DNA of 20,784 bases from Clostridia bacterium (GTDB lineage: Bacteria; Bacillota_E; SLMV01; PUMD01). Each line of letters starts with the position of its first letter. The stretch's first letter is position 1. A program made the translations under genes and the position numbers. The stretch covers positions 1 to 20,784 of the forward strand of contig PWUC01000157.1 of the NCBI GenBank assembly GCA_003562655.1. The letters run 5' to 3'. Shown here piece by piece: positions 1,321 to 18,285 of this stretch. The notes under the pieces were generated by a model. It was not told the origin of the DNA. It saw nothing but the letters and a program-made list of their open reading frames with translations, and did no database searches.

Positions 1321-1338
1321 TTCCGGGAGGTGCACACA

Positions 1339-2289
1339 GTGAAAATGATCGATTGGGGCCAGGGGTGGAAGGTGAGCACCCTGTGCTTCGGCGTGCTGCC
1401 CATGGGACCGGCGGGAAAGGGTCTGTCAGCCTCCGAGGGAGGCGAGCTCCTGCTCGAATCCTTCCGCCTCGGCGTCAACTTCATCGACACCGCCCAGAGC
1501 TACGGTACCTACCCCCACATCCGGTACGCCCTCGATAGGCACGCGGGCGACAAGATCTACGTCGCAACGAAGTCCGCTGCGGAATCCTACGACGACATGG
1601 AGGAGGCTGTAATCGAGGCCCAGGAGGAACTCGGACTGAAGCACATCGACATCTTCCACCTTCACGCGGCCAGGGTGAAGCCCGATGTCTTCGAGGAGAG
1701 GCGCGGCGCCCTGCAATGCCTGTGGGACTACCGGGCGCGCGGGATCATCGGGCGGGTGGGCATTGCCACCCACTCCGCAGCCGTGGTCGAACGGGCAGCA
1801 GACGAGGATGCGGTCGAGGTCATTTTCCCGCTGATCAACATGACGGGACACGGAGTCCTCGACGGGGACCGGGACGATATGATCCGTGCGATCGAGGGGG
1901 TGCACAGGACGGGCAGGCCGATGTATGCAATGAAGGCCTATGCGGGGGGCAATCTGCTGGGAGACCGCAGGGGAGCCCTCGACTTCGTGACCTCGCTGAA
2001 GGGCATTGATGTAGTGGCAGTGGGCATGGTCAATGCCAAGGAGCTGCTGGTGAACGTGGCACTCCTCGAGGATTCTAAGGTGGATGAGAGGCTGTGGAAG
2101 GAGACGGCCCAGAACACCAAGCAGGTGTTTATCGCACCCTTCTGCAGCGGCTGCGGCACCTGCCTGGATCGCTGCCCCAACGACGCCCTTTACCTGGAGG
2201 ACGGCATCTGCAAGATCAGGCCCGATGAGTGCATACTCTGTGGATACTGTGCTCCAGACTGCCCGGAATTCGCCATAAGGATGGTCTAG
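1339..2289 (+). CDS. Aldo/keto reductase with C-terminal 2x[4Fe-4S] ferredoxin domain
   Basis: This is a 316-residue protein with an N-terminal aldo/keto reductase barrel (about residues 8-260) fused to a bacterial ferredoxin domain. The barrel shows the catalytic set: FIDTAQSYGT (Asp50, Tyr55), VATKSA (Lys78) and FHLHA (His109). The C-terminus carries CSGCGTCLDRCP (Cys269, 272, 275, 279) and CILCGYCAPDCP (Cys298, 301, 304, 308), two complete cubane-cluster motifs. Such fusions occur in anaerobes, and the physiological substrate is usually unknown. The GTG at 1339 is preferred because GGGAGG ends 8 bases before it. A GTG at 1330 and an ATG at 1345 are alternatives. It is the only intact gene in the spoIVA-gpsA island and is transcribed against its flanking block. 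An HD-hydrolase relic follows about 55 bases downstream on the same strand. Confidence 0.93.
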   Translation: MKMIDWGQGWKVSTLCFGVLPMGPAGKGLSASEGGELLLESFRLGVNFIDTAQSYGTYPHIRYALDRHAGDKIYVATKSAAESYDDMEEAVIEAQEELGLKHIDIFHLHAARVKPDVFEERRGALQCLWDYRARGIIGRVGIATHSAAVVERAADEDAVEVIFPLINMTGHGVLDGDRDDMIRAIEGVHRTGRPMYAMKAYAGGNLLGDRRGALDFVTSLKGIDVVAVGMVNAKELLVNVALLEDSKVDERLWKETAQNTKQVFIAPFCSGCGTCLDRCPNDALYLEDGICKIRPDECILCGYCAPDCPEFAIRMV

Positions 2290-6950: not shown

Positions 6951-7823
6951 TCACAATCCCTCCCCTGATCCCCTTCTTGCGTTGCTCAGAACGGGGGTGT
7001 GGGCCGCAACCTTCAGAATCCTGTCCAGGTCGTCCTCCACCGGACAGAAGTAGAGGGCCATTTTTCCGGTCTCCAGGTGCTTTCTCATCTGCGATTTCAG
7101 CTCCGGTGTGTCCACATCGGCCCGGCTGCCGAGAACATGAACCAGGTCGTGGATGAGTGCCTGGCGCTGGCCGATGTTGTCCAGGACCCCGAGGTATTCT
7201 CTCTTTCGGGCCTCAATGGTCAGTCCGACTCCCCATCTTTCAATCCGATCCCGCAGCTCAGGAAGGGCCACGTTCATGAAATCAACCTCCGCCACGAAGA
7301 GCTGGGTTCCCTCAAACCGGACCGGAGCAATATCGATCTTCGCCACGTCATGCAGGCTCAGGTCGGACCGCATCAGCTGGGTGACACCGACCAGGACCAA
7401 CCCGGTGACAACTCCCGGAGACTCCCCCAAAAACAGCACGGCACCCGCAGCCGCGCCCGCCACAAACATGACCAGGTAATTGCGCAGCTCGAAGACCTCC
7501 GCTATGCCTTCGATGTAGTTGGCACCCCGGGGCACCAGTTCAATCGACTCCAGCTGCTGCAGCTTGTCCCGCTCCATCCTGCGTATCTCGCGAAACTGGG
7601 TGGCGACCAGCAGCAGAAAAGTGACCGCATCAAACTGCTGAGCGACCAGGGCCACCGGCGCCACGGCGCCCACCAGGCTGGCAAGGAAGCCGAAGGCGAG
7701 GTGGGAGGTGTAGGCGTGAGGATACGACGGATAGGCCCGGTAATCGACCCGTAGCAGGAGGAGCCGGCAGACCAGCCCCCAGAGAGCCCCAATCAGTATT
7801 GCACCAAAATATCGCTCGCTCAT
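6951..7823 (-). CDS. YIEGIA family membrane protein
   Basis: This 290-residue protein contains the name-giving motif NYIEGIAEVFE (YIEGIA at residues 103-108). The N-terminal half has several hydrophobic segments (about 5-24, 43-62, 65-77, 114-131 and 134-149). The C-terminal half is soluble and alpha/beta-like (about 155-290, beginning near DVAKIDIAPVRFEGTQLFVA). The family is found in spore formers, and its biochemical role has not been settled as far as I know. It sits between spoIIP and its capping partner. The start ATG has GAAGG 7 bases upstream. SpoIIP ends 27 bases before it, which suggests one operon. Confidence 0.9.
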   Translation of the reverse strand: MSERYFGAILIGALWGLVCRLLLLRVDYRAYPSYPHAYTSHLAFGFLASLVGAVAPVALVAQQFDAVTFLLLVATQFREIRRMERDKLQQLESIELVPRGANYIEGIAEVFELRNYLVMFVAGAAAGAVLFLGESPGVVTGLVLVGVTQLMRSDLSLHDVAKIDIAPVRFEGTQLFVAEVDFMNVALPELRDRIERWGVGLTIEARKREYLGVLDNIGQRQALIHDLVHVLGSRADVDTPELKSQMRKHLETGKMALYFCPVEDDLDRILKVAAHTPVLSNARRGSGEGL

Positions 7824-10717: not shown

Positions 10718-12280
10718 CTATTTCCCTTCCTCCCTGTTCTTCTTCTCATCGCTCAAGCGATCCCTGGTCTCAGTCAACAGGTCACCGAAAACGTCGCCCA
10801 GGGTGAGACCACCGGCCCGACGCTGCTGCCGGGTCTGTTCCTGGTCCCTGCGCGCCTCCTTCAGGCTCAGGCTTATGCGGCGCTCGTCCGGCTGAACCCG
10901 CAACACCTTGACCAGCACATCCTCGCCCTCGGAGACAACTTCACTGGGCTCACCCACGTGATAGTCGGCCAGCTCCGAGATGTGGACCAGGCCCTCGACC
11001 CCAGGCTCCAGCTCCACGAAGGCGCCGAAGGGAGCGATTCTCATGACGCGACCCTCCACCCCCTCGCCGGCCGTATACTTCTCGTCCACGTTCTCCCACG
11101 GATCTGCCTGAAGCTGCTTCAGGCCGAGAGATATCTTGTCGTCCTCGGGATCCACCCGCAGCACCTTGACCTCGATCTCTGCTCCCACATTGACCACGTC
11201 AGAGGGATGATCCACCCGTCCCCAGGACATCTGGGACACGTGCAGAAGACCGTCGACGCCACCCAGATCCACGAAGGCACCGAAGTCGGTCACGCCCTTG
11301 ACAACGCCCGTGCGAACCTGACCCTCTTCCAGATTGGACCAGGTCTCCTCGCGCTTCTCCTCGTGCTCCTCATCCAGCACGACCTTGCGGGAGAGAATTA
11401 TGCGGTTCTTGTTCCGGTCGAGTTCGATGACCCGGGAACGCACGCGCCGGCCGACGTAGTCGGAAAGATCGCTGACAAAGCCCCGGTCCACGTGGGAGGC
11501 GGGCATGAAGCCCCGCAGCCCAAAAACATCGAGAACCAGTCCCCCCTTGACCTCCTCAACCACAGGAGCTTCCAATGCCTCATTCTCGTCGTGACACACG
11601 TAAAGACGATCCCAGGCAATCTCATCCAGAGCCCTGCGGTAAGAGGCGAGCACCGCTCCGTCCCGGCCGTCGACACTCAAGATGTAAACGGGAATCTCCT
11701 GGCCAACGGTGAAGACATCCTGGGGCTTTTGGCCCGAGGTCAGCTTCAGCTCAGACAGGGGTATGACCCCATCGGACTTGTAGCGCACATCGACCAGCAC
11801 GTTCTCGTCGTTAACCTGAACCACCGCACCCTGCACCACGTCGCCGGGTTGAAGGGGCTCGAAATCCAGGGCGGCTTCTGTTTCCTCCATGCTGGGAATG
11901 GCTTCTTCTTCCTCAGCATCGGCGCATGGTCCAGCATCCTCTTCCTCAGCTTCGGCACAGGGCACAGATTCCTCGCCCTCAACTTCGGCGCAGGGCACAG
12001 GTTTCTCGTCCCCGTCTTCGGCACAGGGCACAGGTTTCTCGTCCCCGTCTTCGGCGCAGGGCACAGATTCCTCCTCCTCGGCCTCAGGAGAGCAACCGCA
12101 CTCCTGTTCCTCGGCGCATTCTGCTAGCTGATCCTCCTCTGGCTGCGCGACGTCTGCCTGAACCTCTTCTTCCTCGAGTTGGTCCTCCTGCTTTTTGTCC
12201 AGCTCGTGACCCATTTCCTTTTCTTCATCGAACACGTTAGAAAATTCCTCTCCTTCGCCTGTCCCGGAACTGCTACCCAT
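10718..12280 (-). CDS. rpsA: Ribosomal protein S1-like, four S1 domains, long acidic N-terminal extension
   Basis: This 520-residue protein has four S1 RNA-binding domains at about 143-210, 225-295, 313-380 and 397-465. Clear S1 strands include GVVKGVTDFGAFVDLGGVDG and LLHVSQMSW in domain 3, and GRVMRIAPFGAFVELEPGVE and GLVHISELAD in domain 4. A charged tail ends in EKKNREEGK. It should bind mRNA on the 30S subunit or act as a general RNA-binding protein. The first 140 residues are very acidic and contain five 11-residue repeats (75-129), each starting with CAE or CAD, plus Cys55, 61 and 63. I know of no such extension in S1. The ATG start has only a weak AGG upstream. An internal ATG (residue 23) would still include the repeats. 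Confidence 0.92.
   Translation of the reverse strand: MGSSSGTGEGEEFSNVFDEEKEMGHELDKKQEDQLEEEEVQADVAQPEEDQLAECAEEQECGCSPEAEEEESVPCAEDGDEKPVPCAEDGDEKPVPCAEVEGEESVPCAEAEEEDAGPCADAEEEEAIPSMEETEAALDFEPLQPGDVVQGAVVQVNDENVLVDVRYKSDGVIPLSELKLTSGQKPQDVFTVGQEIPVYILSVDGRDGAVLASYRRALDEIAWDRLYVCHDENEALEAPVVEEVKGGLVLDVFGLRGFMPASHVDRGFVSDLSDYVGRRVRSRVIELDRNKNRIILSRKVVLDEEHEEKREETWSNLEEGQVRTGVVKGVTDFGAFVDLGGVDGLLHVSQMSWGRVDHPSDVVNVGAEIEVKVLRVDPEDDKISLGLKQLQADPWENVDEKYTAGEGVEGRVMRIAPFGAFVELEPGVEGLVHISELADYHVGEPSEVVSEGEDVLVKVLRVQPDERRISLSLKEARRDQEQTRQQRRAGGLTLGDVFGDLLTETRDRLSDEKKNREEGK
11894..12058 (-). repeat. Five tandem 33-bp repeats inside rpsA encoding Cys-led 11-residue units
   Basis: Codons 75-129 of rpsA form five units of exactly 11 codons: CAEDGDEKPVP twice, then CAEVEGEESVP, CAEAEEEDAGP and CADAEEEEAIP. 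The first two units are nearly identical as DNA, which points to recent duplication. The others have diverged while keeping the Cys, Ala, acidic residues and final Pro. A degenerate 12-residue unit (CSPEAEEEESVP, 63-74) precedes the array. Confidence 0.9.
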
Positions 12281-12384: not shown

Positions 12385-13311
12385 CTACCGGCTTCCCGAT
12401 GACAGATCTTCCCGATGATCGCCAGCACTCGACTGGAACTGTAGGATCCTCTCCCTCACCGCGTCCAGACTAGCCTGCGGTGTGGAGGTTCCTCCCACTA
12501 CACCCACTGAGATAAGGTCTGAAAAATCGCCACACACCAGGCCCTTGGCATCTTCAACGTGGAAGGCCGGTATTCCTGCTTCCAAAACCATATTTACGAG
12601 TAAAGACGTATTTGAGCTGTTCTTTCCCCCTACGACCACCACAGACTGGACCCTCCTGGTGATCTGTTGCAACAGGTTTCGACGCGTCGCGACAACATCG
12701 CAGAGCGTCTTCTCCACCAGCACTTCCCTCGCAGTGGACCTGAGGGACTCGAGGATTGCAGCCCCCTCATCGGGGTCAAAGGTGGTCTGAAACAGAACCG
12801 CCCTCTCCCGGGCAAAGGGAAGGGACTCGGCCTGCCCGGTCGATTCGACGACCACCCCGTCCGGGCCACACCTGGCCAGAACACCCTGCACCTCGGGATG
12901 GTCCCTCCGTCCCACGATGACCACCTGGATATTCAGGTCGCGATACCTCTCTGCCGCCCGCTGAACTCGCCGAACCCGGGGACAGGTGGCATCGACAACC
13001 TCCACTCCCCCCGCCTCCAGCTCACAGATCACCTCAGGAGCCACGCCGTGGCTTCGGATTACCACCACCGATCCCGGAGCAACCTCGTCCGGCCTGTGCA
13101 CCACATCGACTCCCCGGTCCCGCAGGTCCTCGACGACGAGGGGATTGTGCACGATCTCACCCAGGGTGAACACCTGCCGCGGGGCGTCACGGTCCGCCGC
13201 CCGAAGGGCACTCTTCACTGCACGCTGCACACCATCACAGAACCCGCCCTCCCTGACAGTCAGGATCCGAAACGTTCTGCCGCGTCGGCACAACTCCACC
13301 GTTTCAATCAT
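12385..13311 (-). CDS. ispH: 4-hydroxy-3-methylbut-2-enyl diphosphate reductase
   Basis: IspH is the last enzyme of the methylerythritol phosphate route and releases IPP and DMAPP using a [4Fe-4S] cluster. The 308-residue protein has the three cluster cysteines: Cys25 in GGFCDGVQRA, Cys110 in DATCPRV and Cys204 in KTLCDVVATR. It also has His55 (EIVHNPLVV), His88 (RSHGV) and catalytic Glu140 (DHPEVQG), with GKNSSNTSLL and VGGTSTPQASLD near the C-terminus. The ATG at 13311 overlaps the end of plsC by 8 bases and has GGAG 9 bases upstream, so translation is coupled. rpsA follows after about 100 bases, matching the clostridial ispH-rpsA neighbourhood. Confidence 0.97.
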   Translation of the reverse strand: MIETVELCRRGRTFRILTVREGGFCDGVQRAVKSALRAADRDAPRQVFTLGEIVHNPLVVEDLRDRGVDVVHRPDEVAPGSVVVIRSHGVAPEVICELEAGGVEVVDATCPRVRRVQRAAERYRDLNIQVVIVGRRDHPEVQGVLARCGPDGVVVESTGQAESLPFARERAVLFQTTFDPDEGAAILESLRSTAREVLVEKTLCDVVATRRNLLQQITRRVQSVVVVGGKNSSNTSLLVNMVLEAGIPAFHVEDAKGLVCGDFSDLISVGVVGGTSTPQASLDAVRERILQFQSSAGDHREDLSSGSR

Positions 13312-14896: not shown

Positions 14897-15430
14897 CTAC
14901 TGGTCTTCCAGGGTCACCGAGCCCAGAATCACCTCTCCCCGAACCAGGGACCACTCCCGGCCGAGGGGCGGGGTTCGAACACCGCTGACTGCAATGACCC
15001 GTACGCGGACGGGATCCGCCCCCTCGTTCAACACCACGGCAATGGTGTCTCCCGGTGAGACGGAAAGGGCCACCCTCCACCCGGTGAATGACGCCACCTT
15101 CCGTCCATCGATCGTAACCTCAACCCCGGGAGAGGCTGGACGGTTAATCAACCCCAGTACCACGACGGCCTCTCCCCGGCCCTCCAGCAGGGTCGACACT
15201 GCAGTTGCAGCCCCGGACCCCGCTTCCTCCAGCCAGAAGGGCCAGCTGTCGAAGTTGCCCACCTCCCGCACCGGCGCCCCGCCAGAAAAGACCGCGGACA
15301 CGGCGAAGAGTACAAGAGCAAAGATGATGAGCGTCTGCACGTGGTGCCGCGACATCCCTCTCGGCGCGTCTGGCCGGTGCCTGTCGGCCCAGACCCACTG
15401 CCTCCAGTTGGACGGATGATCTGAACCCAT
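14897..15430 (-). CDS. Membrane-anchored protein of unknown function
   Basis: I do not recognise this 177-residue protein. It has a short basic, tryptophan-containing cytoplasmic start (MGSDHPSNWRQWVWADRHR), one membrane segment (about 32-49, QTLIIFALVLFAVSAVFS), and then an extracytoplasmic part. That part has NFDSWPFWLEEAGSGAATAV, a valine-rich region that looks like beta strands, and no cysteines. The ATG at 15430 has GGGAG 5-6 bases upstream, and a longer frame to 15478 lacks a good site. It follows btuD by 54 bases on the same strand, so it is probably the last gene of the riboswitch-controlled operon. Read-through toward cmk is also possible. A periplasm-side accessory role is only a guess. 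Confidence 0.75.
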   Translation of the reverse strand: MGSDHPSNWRQWVWADRHRPDAPRGMSRHHVQTLIIFALVLFAVSAVFSGGAPVREVGNFDSWPFWLEEAGSGAATAVSTLLEGRGEAVVVLGLINRPASPGVEVTIDGRKVASFTGWRVALSVSPGDTIAVVLNEGADPVRVRVIAVSGVRTPPLGREWSLVRGEVILGSVTLEDQ

Positions 15431-15484
15431 GCGCACTCCCGTCCTTTCCTGCGAAAGAATATGTGCCCTCCCGGGCACTTATGC

Positions 15485-16273
15485 TCAGAGCCCGGAGGAG
15501 ATGAGAACCTGGGGAGCAGAGCACTGGGGATGCTGGACCACTTCAACAGAGACCCCGTAGACTCTCTCAATGATGTCGCCATTGAGGACGCTGTGGGGGG
15601 CGCCCTGGGCAAAGACCTGGCCCCGGAACAGGATCACCAGGTGGTCGCAGTAGAGGGCCGCGGTGTTCAGATCGTGCAGGACTGCGACCACCGCCATTCC
15701 CTTTCGGGCCAGGCCTCGCGCATATTCCATCACAATGCGCTGGTGACCCAGGTCCAGGTGACTTGTGGGTTCGTCCAGCAGCAATACCTCCGGACTCTGG
15801 GCCAGGGCCCGGGCCATTATGACCCGGCGCTGCTCTCCGCCGCTCAACTCCCAGAAGGAACGATCCTGAAAACCCGTCACACCCATGACCTCCAGGGCCT
15901 GATCGATGGCCTCTCGATCCGCCCCCGTCTCCCCCGACCAGATGGACTGATGGGCGAGACGACCCATGGACACAATGTCCCGGACGGTGAAATCGAAGAG
16001 GATGTCGCCCATCTGGGGAACGACTGCCACATGCCGCGCCATGAGCTGCCGCGACCAGCGCCTGATGTCGCGTCCGTGCAGCAGGACCCGTCCCGACTGA
16101 AGCGAGATCACTCCCGTCAGGGCCCGCAGGAGGGTGGTCTTGCCGGCACCGTTCGGGCCGACTACGCCGATCATCTGTCCCCGGTCGGCAGAAAAGCCGA
16201 CCCCCCTCAGCACCCGACGACCCTTGTAGCCGGCGTGGATCTTCTCTGCGGTCAGCAGAGCGCCATTCTCCAT
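15485..16273 (-). CDS. btuD: ABC transporter ATP-binding protein, cobalamin/Fe-siderophore type
   Basis: This is the ATPase of a type II importer. The 262-residue protein has Walker A (GVVGPNGAGKTTLLRAL), a Q-loop (VVPQMGDI), the signature LSGGEQRRV, Walker B (VLLLDEPTSHLD) and the H-loop (AVLHDLN). Its length and the TVRDIVSMGR segment are typical of the FecE/BtuD group. The ATG at 16273 follows GAGG. The permease gene ends 10 bases upstream. The substrate is taken to be a cobamide because the operon is led by a cobalamin riboswitch; the protein itself cannot distinguish B12 from iron-siderophore. Confidence 0.92.
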   Translation of the reverse strand: MENGALLTAEKIHAGYKGRRVLRGVGFSADRGQMIGVVGPNGAGKTTLLRALTGVISLQSGRVLLHGRDIRRWSRQLMARHVAVVPQMGDILFDFTVRDIVSMGRLAHQSIWSGETGADREAIDQALEVMGVTGFQDRSFWELSGGEQRRVIMARALAQSPEVLLLDEPTSHLDLGHQRIVMEYARGLARKGMAVVAVLHDLNTAALYCDHLVILFRGQVFAQGAPHSVLNGDIIERVYGVSVEVVQHPQCSAPQVLISSGL

Positions 16274-16283
16274 CAATATCGCC

Positions 16284-17297
16284 TCACGCTTTCCAGCTTC
16301 GGTGTCTCACCAACAGATACAGGAAAAAGGGCCCGCCCAGTATTGCCGTGATGATGCCCACGGGCAGCTCCGCCGGGCTCAATACCGTCCGGGCCGCCAG
16401 ATCCGCCAGCATCAAAAAGGGGGCCCCTACCAGGATCGACGCCGGCATCAGAAACCGGTGATCCGGTCCCGCCAGCAGCCGGACCATGTGCGGGACGATC
16501 AGCCCGACAAAACCGATGATCCCACCCACCGAAACCGCCACCGCCGCCAGCATGGAGGCCCCCAGCAACAGGTACTTCCGCACCCTCTCCACGTCGACGC
16601 CCAGGTAGAGGGCCGTCTCATCGCCCATCAACATGGCATTCAGATGACGTGAATAGACGACGAGAGGGATCAGCCCGAGGGCCTGGAAGGGCAGTACCGT
16701 CCTCAGCTGTCCCCAGTTGGACCGGCCGAGCCCCCCCATGGTCCAATACACGATGGCACGCATTTCCTCCCCACTGAAGAAGATGATCAGGGAGACCAGG
16801 CCCGAGAGAAAGGCGCTCATGGCCACACCGGCCAGCAGCAGCGTCATGACCGAGGCTCCTCCCTCACGCCTCGCCAGCGCATAGACCACCGCAACGGCAC
16901 TGAGGGCTCCCACAAAGGCCGCCAGGGGCACCATGACCCCGCTGTAGCCACCGGTCATGATAATGGCAGCTCCCAGGGCTGCACCCGCGGAGACGCCCAG
17001 GACAAAGGGATCCGCCATGGGGTTCTGAAACAGCCCCTGGTACGTGGCGCCGGCCGCGGCCAGGGATGCACCCGTCAGTCCCGCCAGCAGCACCCGCGGA
17101 AGACGGAGCTGAAGCAGTATGACCTGCCAGCTGGACGGCCACCGGTCTGCGGCCACCCCCCCGGTGGCAGCCGACCAGAGCGTGTCGGCCACGGCCCGCA
17201 CCGGCATCCGCACAGACCCCCCGTACAGGGCGACCAGAGCACAGACTCCGGTGAGGACGAGCAATCCGATCAGAATGGCAACGCGGCTGCCCTTCAA
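16284..17297 (-). CDS. btuC: FecCD/BtuC-type ABC transporter permease
   Basis: This membrane subunit of the importer is about 337 residues with roughly ten transmembrane helices. Family segments include LLQLRLPRVLLAGLTGASLA, GATYQGLFQNPMADPFVLGV and SAGAALGAA near the N-terminus, then VGGIIGFVGLIVPHMVRLLA and LMLADLAARTVLSPAELPVG near the C-terminus, the coupling-helix region. The TTG at 17297 is chosen because GGGAGGAG lies about 10 bases upstream. A TTG at 17321 would overlap btuF by 8 bases and has no such site. It is followed by the ATPase gene after 10 bases. Confidence 0.92.
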   Translation of the reverse strand: MKGSRVAILIGLLVLTGVCALVALYGGSVRMPVRAVADTLWSAATGGVAADRWPSSWQVILLQLRLPRVLLAGLTGASLAAAGATYQGLFQNPMADPFVLGVSAGAALGAAIIMTGGYSGVMVPLAAFVGALSAVAVVYALARREGGASVMTLLLAGVAMSAFLSGLVSLIIFFSGEEMRAIVYWTMGGLGRSNWGQLRTVLPFQALGLIPLVVYSRHLNAMLMGDETALYLGVDVERVRKYLLLGASMLAAVAVSVGGIIGFVGLIVPHMVRLLAGPDHRFLMPASILVGAPFLMLADLAARTVLSPAELPVGIITAILGGPFFLYLLVRHRSWKA

Positions 17298-17313
17298 CGC
17301 CCCAGCTCCTCCC

Positions 17314-18285
17314 TCACTCAAAGACCCCTGGATGCAGGAGGCGGGCCATCGCCCTGAGCCCCTCGATGATCCTCGGGCTGGGACGGGTCACGATGTCGGG
17401 GTCGATCTGGTAGTACCGGTCATTTTGCACCGCCGATATGCTCTCCCATCCGGAACGCCTGCCGCCCTCGAGTTCCAGGATCGTGTCTCTGAGGGTGGTG
17501 AGGATGACATCCGGGTTGCGTTCAACGAGGTCCTCGGTGCTGAATTCCACCCATTCGCCGCTGACATCTGCGGCGATGTTGGTCCCTCCGCTGACGGTGA
17601 TCATGAAATCGATGAAGGTGCCGGGACCCGTCGTCATCAGGGGCTCGGGACCCCAGACCTCGTAGAACACGGACACCCTCTCCTCCTCCGACAGGCCGCT
17701 CAGGGCCTCCTCAATCCGCCAGACCTCCGAGCGCATGTAATCAATGACCTCCCGCGCCTGGATCGGGACCCCCATGATCTGGCCGGCGGTCTGTATGTTG
17801 TGGTAGATCCCGTCGAAATCGCTGGGCTGAAACACCACCACGGTCACACCCAGATCCTCGAGCTGCGCGGTCATCTCCTCCATGCCGGCAATGGTGAAGA
17901 ACAGCTCCGGCTCCAGGGAGGCGATGATCTCAAAATTCGGGTTCATCGGCCCACCGACGCTGGGTATGTCCTCCAGCTCCTCCTTGGGCCAGTTGCTGTA
18001 GTCGTCAATGCCCACAATTCGGTCCCCGACCCCAATAGAAAACAGGATCTCGGTGTTGCTCGGGGCAAAACAGATCACCCGCTCCGGCCGGCTCTCGATG
18101 GTGACCTCCTGCCCGGAGTCGTCGACAATGGTGATGGGATACTTGATCAGCTCGGTTACCGTCTCCTCTTCTGGCAGTTCCTCTTCGACCGGCTCTCCCT
18201 CTGCACTCCAGAAAAGACACCCGCTCAACAGGACCAGTGACAGGATCAGCCCGATCAGAAACCTCCGTCTGACTCCAAGTCTCAC
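17314..18285 (-). CDS. btuF: Cobalamin-type substrate-binding lipoprotein
   Basis: This is the extracellular substrate-binding subunit of the importer. The 323-residue protein starts with basic residues, a hydrophobic stretch and a lipobox LLSGC (Cys23), so it should be lipid-anchored after cleavage by signal peptidase II. An acidic linker (about 30-43) follows, then the helical-backbone metal/cobamide-binding fold with ERVICFAPSNTEILFSIGVG, VGGPMNPNFEIIASLEPELF, and NPDVILTT in the C-terminal lobe. The GTG at 18285 has AGGGG 9 bases upstream. It is the first gene after the cobalamin riboswitch, which supports a cobamide as the ligand over iron-siderophore. Confidence 0.92.
   Translation of the reverse strand: MRLGVRRRFLIGLILSLVLLSGCLFWSAEGEPVEEELPEEETVTELIKYPITIVDDSGQEVTIESRPERVICFAPSNTEILFSIGVGDRIVGIDDYSNWPKEELEDIPSVGGPMNPNFEIIASLEPELFFTIAGMEEMTAQLEDLGVTVVVFQPSDFDGIYHNIQTAGQIMGVPIQAREVIDYMRSEVWRIEEALSGLSEEERVSVFYEVWGPEPLMTTGPGTFIDFMITVSGGTNIAADVSGEWVEFSTEDLVERNPDVILTTLRDTILELEGGRRSGWESISAVQNDRYYQIDPDIVTRPSPRIIEGLRAMARLLHPGVFE

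Follow-up and report, generated by a model that had tools for sequence, protein, structure and literature searches.

Cysteines persist in a variable acidic N-terminal arm of ribosomal protein S1 in one clade of uncultured bacteria

Ribosomal protein S1 (bS1) encoded in a 20,784-nucleotide contig of a Clostridia bacterium (PWUC01000157.1, analyzed over its whole length and hereafter called the window) starts with a long acidic arm that carries eight cysteines. An acidic, cysteine-bearing arm was found in 13 of the 13 S1 proteins of the clade to which it belongs, namely, the window protein and 12 proteins from among the best 120 of 7,997 scored matches, with 2 to 10 cysteines at positions that shift from protein to protein. 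The arm is genuine and makes this S1 a clade-specific variant of a known protein, whose cysteines, as far as the compared sequences indicate, look to be retained as a dose and not as a motif. The persistence of cysteine in an otherwise scrambled S1 arm, which is new to us, is more interesting than the regular cysteine array of the window protein itself. The explanation that we favor, at a probability of roughly one in three, is that the arm would be a thiol-bearing, acidic, disordered RNA mimic that is tuned by the binding of soft metals to its thiolates and carboxylates.

The gene, rpsA, lies on the reverse strand at positions 10718 to 12235 (stop codon included) and encodes 505 aa with four S1 (OB) domains. 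Its identification as ribosomal protein S1 in an earlier note on this DNA is borne out by the bS1 profile NCBIfam NF005208, for which the 520-aa form read from an upstream ATG scored 435.9 bits (cutoff, 368), and by four stretches that match Pfam PF00575; the structural model likewise matched bS1 structures, with bS1 chains as the best Foldseek hits. The S1 body (10721 to 11869, reverse strand; 383 aa) contains a single cysteine, Cys214. Upstream of rpsA are a separate ispH/lytB gene (12385 to 13311, reverse strand; TIGR00216, 222.9 bits against a cutoff of 187.85), a PlsC-like acyltransferase, and the cytidylate kinase gene cmk, and downstream is the type 2 IPP isomerase gene fni. The window protein is not an IspH-S1 fusion, given that the two ORFs are separate (12385 to 13311 and 10718 to 12280) and that the fusion profile NF000907 scored 429.3 bits against a cutoff of 624. 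The ispH and rpsA ORFs are also separate in the three related genomes L001, L002, and L003 and are fused in 36 of the 61 relatives read outside the clade, which points to a fusion or fission event near the clade.

Several other features of the window were recorded. A 389-aa ORF that runs antisense through S1 (10958 to 12127, forward strand) is taken as a probable by-product of S1 codon use. A 290-aa protein (6951 to 7823, reverse strand) matched the Pfam family YIEGIA (PF14045) at 304 bits and matched no NCBIfam model, and an ORF of 193 aa that lies between cmk and the gene for an ABC transporter ATPase (14897 to 15478, reverse strand) had no Pfam match. An aldo/keto reductase with a C-terminal ferredoxin-like 4Fe-4S region is encoded at 1330 to 2289 (forward strand), and a binding protein, a FecCD permease, and an ABC ATPase at 15485 to 18285 (reverse strand) make up an uptake system of the metal, siderophore, or cobalamin type.

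Translation of S1 very probably starts at a GTG codon (12233 to 12235, reverse strand), 15 codons downstream of the ATG at 12280, as judged from a comparison of eight DNA sequences. The GTG follows a Shine-Dalgarno-like site, GAAGGAGAGG (12247 to 12256, reverse strand), and the same or a similar purine-rich site stands shortly 5' of a GTG at the loci of all seven relatives compared. In three of these (L040, L041, and L042), a 1-nt indel makes the gap between site and GTG 1 nt shorter than in the window, so that the bases farther upstream lie in a different frame there and are noncoding in those three. The conserved site and GTG, together with this change of frame, make translation from the ATG at 12280 very improbable. 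The earlier note had numbered the protein from that ATG; its Cys75 and the others therefore shift, and the eight cysteines become residues 40, 46, 48, 60, 71, 82, 93, and 104 of 505. The extreme N terminus is conserved in the clade (M[FLI], followed at most a few residues later by [DE]EK), the remainder of the arm being variable; by its sequence, this conserved start could be a short docking motif.

The arm of the window protein (11870 to 12235, reverse strand) is 122 aa long, with 50 Asp or Glu and 5 Lys or Arg residues and a net charge of −45. An AlphaFold2 model built with a 15-sequence alignment gave a pLDDT below 50 for residues 1 to 110 and mostly 80 to 90 in the OB domains, and the description of the arm as acidic and disordered is thereby upheld, the disorder being a prediction. 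A search of the arm against PDB sequences returned no match at E values up to 1. Cys40, Cys46, and Cys48 (CAEEQECGC; 12092 to 12118, reverse strand) are followed by five 11-residue units of the form C-A-[ED]-x3-E-x3-P (11894 to 12058, reverse strand), each with one cysteine (Cys60, 71, 82, 93, and 104) and with 4 to 5 Asp or Glu residues per 11 and a terminal Pro. The last of these units extends into the conserved junction between the arm and OB1, IPSMEETEAALDFEP (11855 to 11899, reverse strand), which was delimited in an alignment of 15 S1 proteins and includes a short predicted helix (residues 116 to 122). The pattern described in the earlier note is thus present in the sequence: five cysteines spaced by 11 (Cys75, 86, 97, 108, and 119 in the ATG numbering), three further ones (55, 61, and 63), and acidic units that end in Pro, two of which are nearly identical at the DNA level, units 1 and 2 being distinguished solely by the last base of the Cys codon (TGC or TGT).

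Four equal spacings in a row among eight randomly placed cysteines arose in 44 of 200,000 simulations, and the 11-residue period is explained by tandem duplication, the array being detected by Tandem Repeats Finder at 11907 to 12079 with a period of 33 and 5.2 copies. Among the five units, the Cys codon has undergone silent changes only (TGC/TGT), and the residue varies at 7 of the 11 positions. The array had been described as expanding or contracting; expansion is the simplest course, with one PVPC[AS]E-like unit in the clade member P0002 and five in the window. A run of 11-residue cysteine spacings was seen in none of the 12 clade relatives (from the best 120 of 7,997), P0011 having one single spacing of 11. 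Regular spacing was accordingly rejected as a functional geometry, and the part of the earlier reading that was built on it concerns a feature local to the window. Arrays with cysteine in the unit occur in five of the eight arms for which DNA is available (periods of 33, 30, 27, 30, and 15 bp), and cysteine-less arrays also occur, for example, a 9-bp array in L001.

The clade arms are 91 to 139 aa long and contain 10 cysteines in P0010, 8 in the window protein and P0013, 6 in P0004, 5 in P0003, P0005, P0007, and P0011, 4 in P0001 and P0012, and 2 in P0002, P0006, and P0008, for a total of 66 cysteines in 1,459 arm residues compared with 4 in 5,094 body residues (the arm of P0004, 128 aa from the start of its record, is counted as 112 aa from its GTG). 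Membership rests on the best 120 of 7,997 scored matches of a full-length search, so weaker members could be missing; when the query was limited to residues 1 to 150, four of 7,044 candidates were recovered, and an alignment-based search found no further clade member among the best 120 of 7,997. In a midpoint-rooted tree of 27 S1 bodies, the 14 proteins with cysteine-bearing arms (the 13 and that of L001) share one side of a branch supported at 98/98, a topology that fits a single origin of the arm cysteines in the clade. The next branch outside the clade is P0015, whose lone arm cysteine lies upstream of the likely start. Relatives with the extension and without conserved cysteines, which the earlier note had named as evidence against its reading, were therefore found in part: cysteine as such occurs in 13 of 13 clade arms, its number and position are not conserved, and the arm of P0015 has none past its likely start.

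For comparison with S1 proteins outside the clade, an acidic arm was defined as at least 60 aa with at least 30% Asp plus Glu. The database set of 146 proteins includes 134 from outside the clade (2 IspH fusions and 132 others), all of them matches to the window query, so that acidic arms are overrepresented and many of the proteins are near kin. Acidic arms were present in 88 of the 132, totaled 8,563 aa, and contained a single cysteine, in P0015; no cysteine occurred in the other 44 arms. An arm or linker could also be read in 68 of 151 genomes, 7 from the clade and 61 from outside it (22 + 39), the arm of G008 being left out because its contig ends inside S1. The 36 IspH-S1 fusions among the 61 comprise 3 with one linker cysteine each and otherwise none; L132 and L159, sorted by script as unfused, were recounted by eye as IspH fusions without linker cysteines. 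The 25 unfused relatives have no arm cysteine downstream of the likely start, which is a guessed one, and L044, L045, L056, L062, and L127 show cysteines only upstream of it. Within this sample, cysteine-bearing arms are restricted to one clade. The statement in the earlier note that S1 as a rule begins near its first domain was too strong, since many of the related S1 proteins in this query-biased sample carry an acidic arm or an IspH linker. Because cysteine-free acidic arms surround the clade, the acidic arm is probably older than its cysteines, as far as can be told from the sequences.

Acidic segments of other proteins were examined in crude ORF calls on parts of two clade genomes, to each of which the S1 locus was added deliberately. 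The G002 sample (657 kb, 659 ORFs) has 17 acidic segments with 13 cysteines, 5 of them in S1 and 8 in the other 16 segments together, four of these 8 being single lipobox-like cysteines; the G007 sample (208 kb) has 5 segments with 12 cysteines, 8 in S1 and 4 in the other 4 together. No acidic segment except S1 has more than two. Cysteine-rich acidic stretches as a general trait were thus not seen in the two sampled genomes, where the arm cysteines are S1 specific. Among the titles and abstract openings retrieved from open-license literature on S1 arms, redox, zinc, or autoinhibition, none concerned cysteine-bearing S1 arms.

In the reading that we favor, the acidic arm is most likely an intramolecular nucleic acid mimic that would occupy the basic surfaces of the OB domains in competition with RNA, like the acidic tail of Hfq. 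Cysteines would have been gained in the clade, once at the simplest, and retained at a variable number (2 to 10) without fixed positions. Thiolates and carboxylates would together bind soft divalent ions, so that the arm is partly neutralized and compacted, and compaction by metal would change the freedom of S1 to hold RNA or to dock on the ribosome. The thiol dose would be set by tandem-repeat expansion, with the 33-bp array of the window as an example. S1 helps to bring mRNAs to the ribosome; tentatively, the clade may possess a metal- or thiol-responsive S1 whose disordered acidic arm links the recruitment of mRNA to the soft-metal or sulfur state of the cell, through a dose of thiols that a fast-changing tandem repeat determines. 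We infer selection on thiols, metal as the ligand, and an effect on RNA or ribosome binding. That cysteine position is free and cysteine number never zero (13 of 13) favors such a fuzzy chelator over a redox pair. The members with only two cysteines (P0002, P0006, and P0008) count against it, as little is left there for chelation, and so does the lack of a fixed CxxC or CxC set, cysteine positions turning over between clade arms.

In the clade arms, 11 close cysteine pairs were observed where 8.6 would be expected (P = 0.21); after thinning to nine arms, P was 0.19 for close pairs and 0.06 for distances of at most 2, so a clustered-cysteine metal motif is unsupported. Conserved CxC or CxxC elements of the metallothionein or zinc-ribbon kind are absent, cysteine positions being unconserved across the clade arms. 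Asp or Glu stands within two residues of 64 of the 66 arm cysteines and of 95% of all arm positions, and the carboxylates near cysteine are therefore arm background, with no enrichment.

Unconserved number and position and nonsignificant clustering are also what would be expected if acidic disorder alone mattered and chance cysteines, copied by replication slippage, were tolerated in an exposed arm within a reducing cytoplasm. Such neutrality, which we consider somewhat less probable than chelation, would accommodate P0008 and P0012, whose bodies are 97% identical and whose arms have 2 and 4 cysteines, as well as the cysteine-less, E-rich repeat of L001, which has an arm 11 aa shorter than the P0003 arm. 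It is harder to reconcile with the presence of cysteine in all 13 arms (from the best 120 of 7,997) despite their otherwise scrambled sequence. Cysteine makes up 4.5% of arm residues, close to Ser (4.6%) and above Gly, Phe, Arg, and Tyr, each of which is one mutation step from Cys codons; the silent-only changes of the Cys codon in the window units and the absence of any cysteine buildup in the other acidic segments sampled from G002 and G007 likewise speak for retention.

An alternative of similar weight is that the arm cysteines are oxidized, cross-linked, or persulfidated, joining S1 arms or blocking S1 upon redox change. The confinement of thiols to an exposed, flexible arm on an almost cysteine-free body would suit such a switch, as would the habitat. 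The clade consists of uncultured bacteria, some known from soda-lake sediment: L001 to L003 come from MAGs whose titles are Clostridia bacterium T3Sed10, B1Sed10, and T1Sed10, and T3Sed10 and B1Sed10 appear as sample names in passages of a soda-lake sediment study that also describe how other bacteria there metabolize polysulfide (PMC6146748). Polysulfide is plausible in such sulfidic sediment. Oxygen is a less plausible trigger. COX1 and cytochrome bd were absent from all eight related genomes searched, and the same searches were positive in 8 and 10, respectively, of 14 control genomes. An anaerobic life with rare exposure to oxygen is thus probable, with the proviso that MAGs can be incomplete, and oxygen sensing by the arm is disfavored. 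Conserved pairs are absent, and the odd number of cysteines in P0003, P0005, P0007, and P0011 (five each) is ill suited to complete disulfide pairing. Acidic neighbors, moreover, should raise the thiol pKa, lowering thiol reactivity and favoring cation binding over redox chemistry.

General acidification of proteins in salty habitats could be invoked for the arm from the soda-lake samples for which L001 and L002 are named, together with the acidic proteomes reported for various soda-lake CPR bacteria in passages of the same study (PMC6146748). This is very improbable: in two clade genomes, six-frame ORFs of 250 aa or more average 12.7% Asp plus Glu against 10.1 and 10.9% Lys plus Arg (a crude count that includes antisense frames), six enzymes of the window contain 11.5 to 14.0% Asp plus Glu, and a generally acidic proteome was accordingly not seen in the samples of the two genomes; acidic arms, furthermore, occur in many other S1 proteins, and the cysteines would be left unexplained. 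Repeats are prone to misassembly, but an untranslated arm or an assembly artifact is scarcely credible given the GTG and ribosome site conserved in eight of eight DNA sequences and the open arms of 12 other database proteins, whose frames stay open through shifting repeats.

With an S1 clade that has added and kept arm thiols, control of translation initiation by metal or thiols could be tested directly, and such a clade would exemplify selection on residue dose, rather than on positions, in a disordered region. Compared with known systems, the window protein shares with the Bacillota-type four-domain bS1 (NF005208) the four S1 domains, an above-cutoff match, and the neighbors ispH, plsC-like, cmk, and fni, and it differs in its 122-aa arm with eight cysteines, acidic arms outside the clade being almost cysteine free. 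IspH-S1 fusions (NF000907) carry a linker at the same place before OB1, which in P0023 is acidic and cysteine free; their 36 linkers contain zero or one cysteine, and IspH and S1 are separate genes in the window. Metallothioneins and zinc-ribbon ribosomal proteins also have cysteine-dense stretches, whereas the clade arm lacks their conserved CxxC or CxC order and is very acidic.

The arm occupies the same position before OB1 as the uS2 anchor of Escherichia coli bS1, and the uS2 proteins of all eight relatives contain VDTN and GNDDA motifs, which we take to hold the aspartates of the uS2 zinc pocket. No cysteine-rich extension downstream of the uS2 start was seen by eye in the eight genomes (L167 has extra cysteines upstream of its likely start), and a special uS2 partner for the arm was dropped. 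Passages on the E. coli protein locate the S1 N terminus by the zinc pocket of uS2 and propose zinc control of S1 binding (PMC4288201, PMC10123108), a proposal that rests on the uS2 pocket (PMC4288201). Because this pocket belongs to uS2 and is contacted by a lysine of S1 (PMC10123108), the zinc precedent concerns place, not chemistry; the E. coli anchor, furthermore, consists of a short helix that includes Phe5 and Phe9 (PMC10123108). The arm also resembles the acidic C-terminal tail of Hfq, whose acidic tip is reported to mimic nucleic acid and to limit RNA binding (PMC5606850): both are acidic, disordered extensions of an RNA-binding core (for the window arm, by its net charge of −45 and predicted pLDDT below 50). 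Autoinhibition is known for the Hfq tail, and the arm of the clade differs from it in being N terminal, in belonging to S1, and in bearing cysteines.
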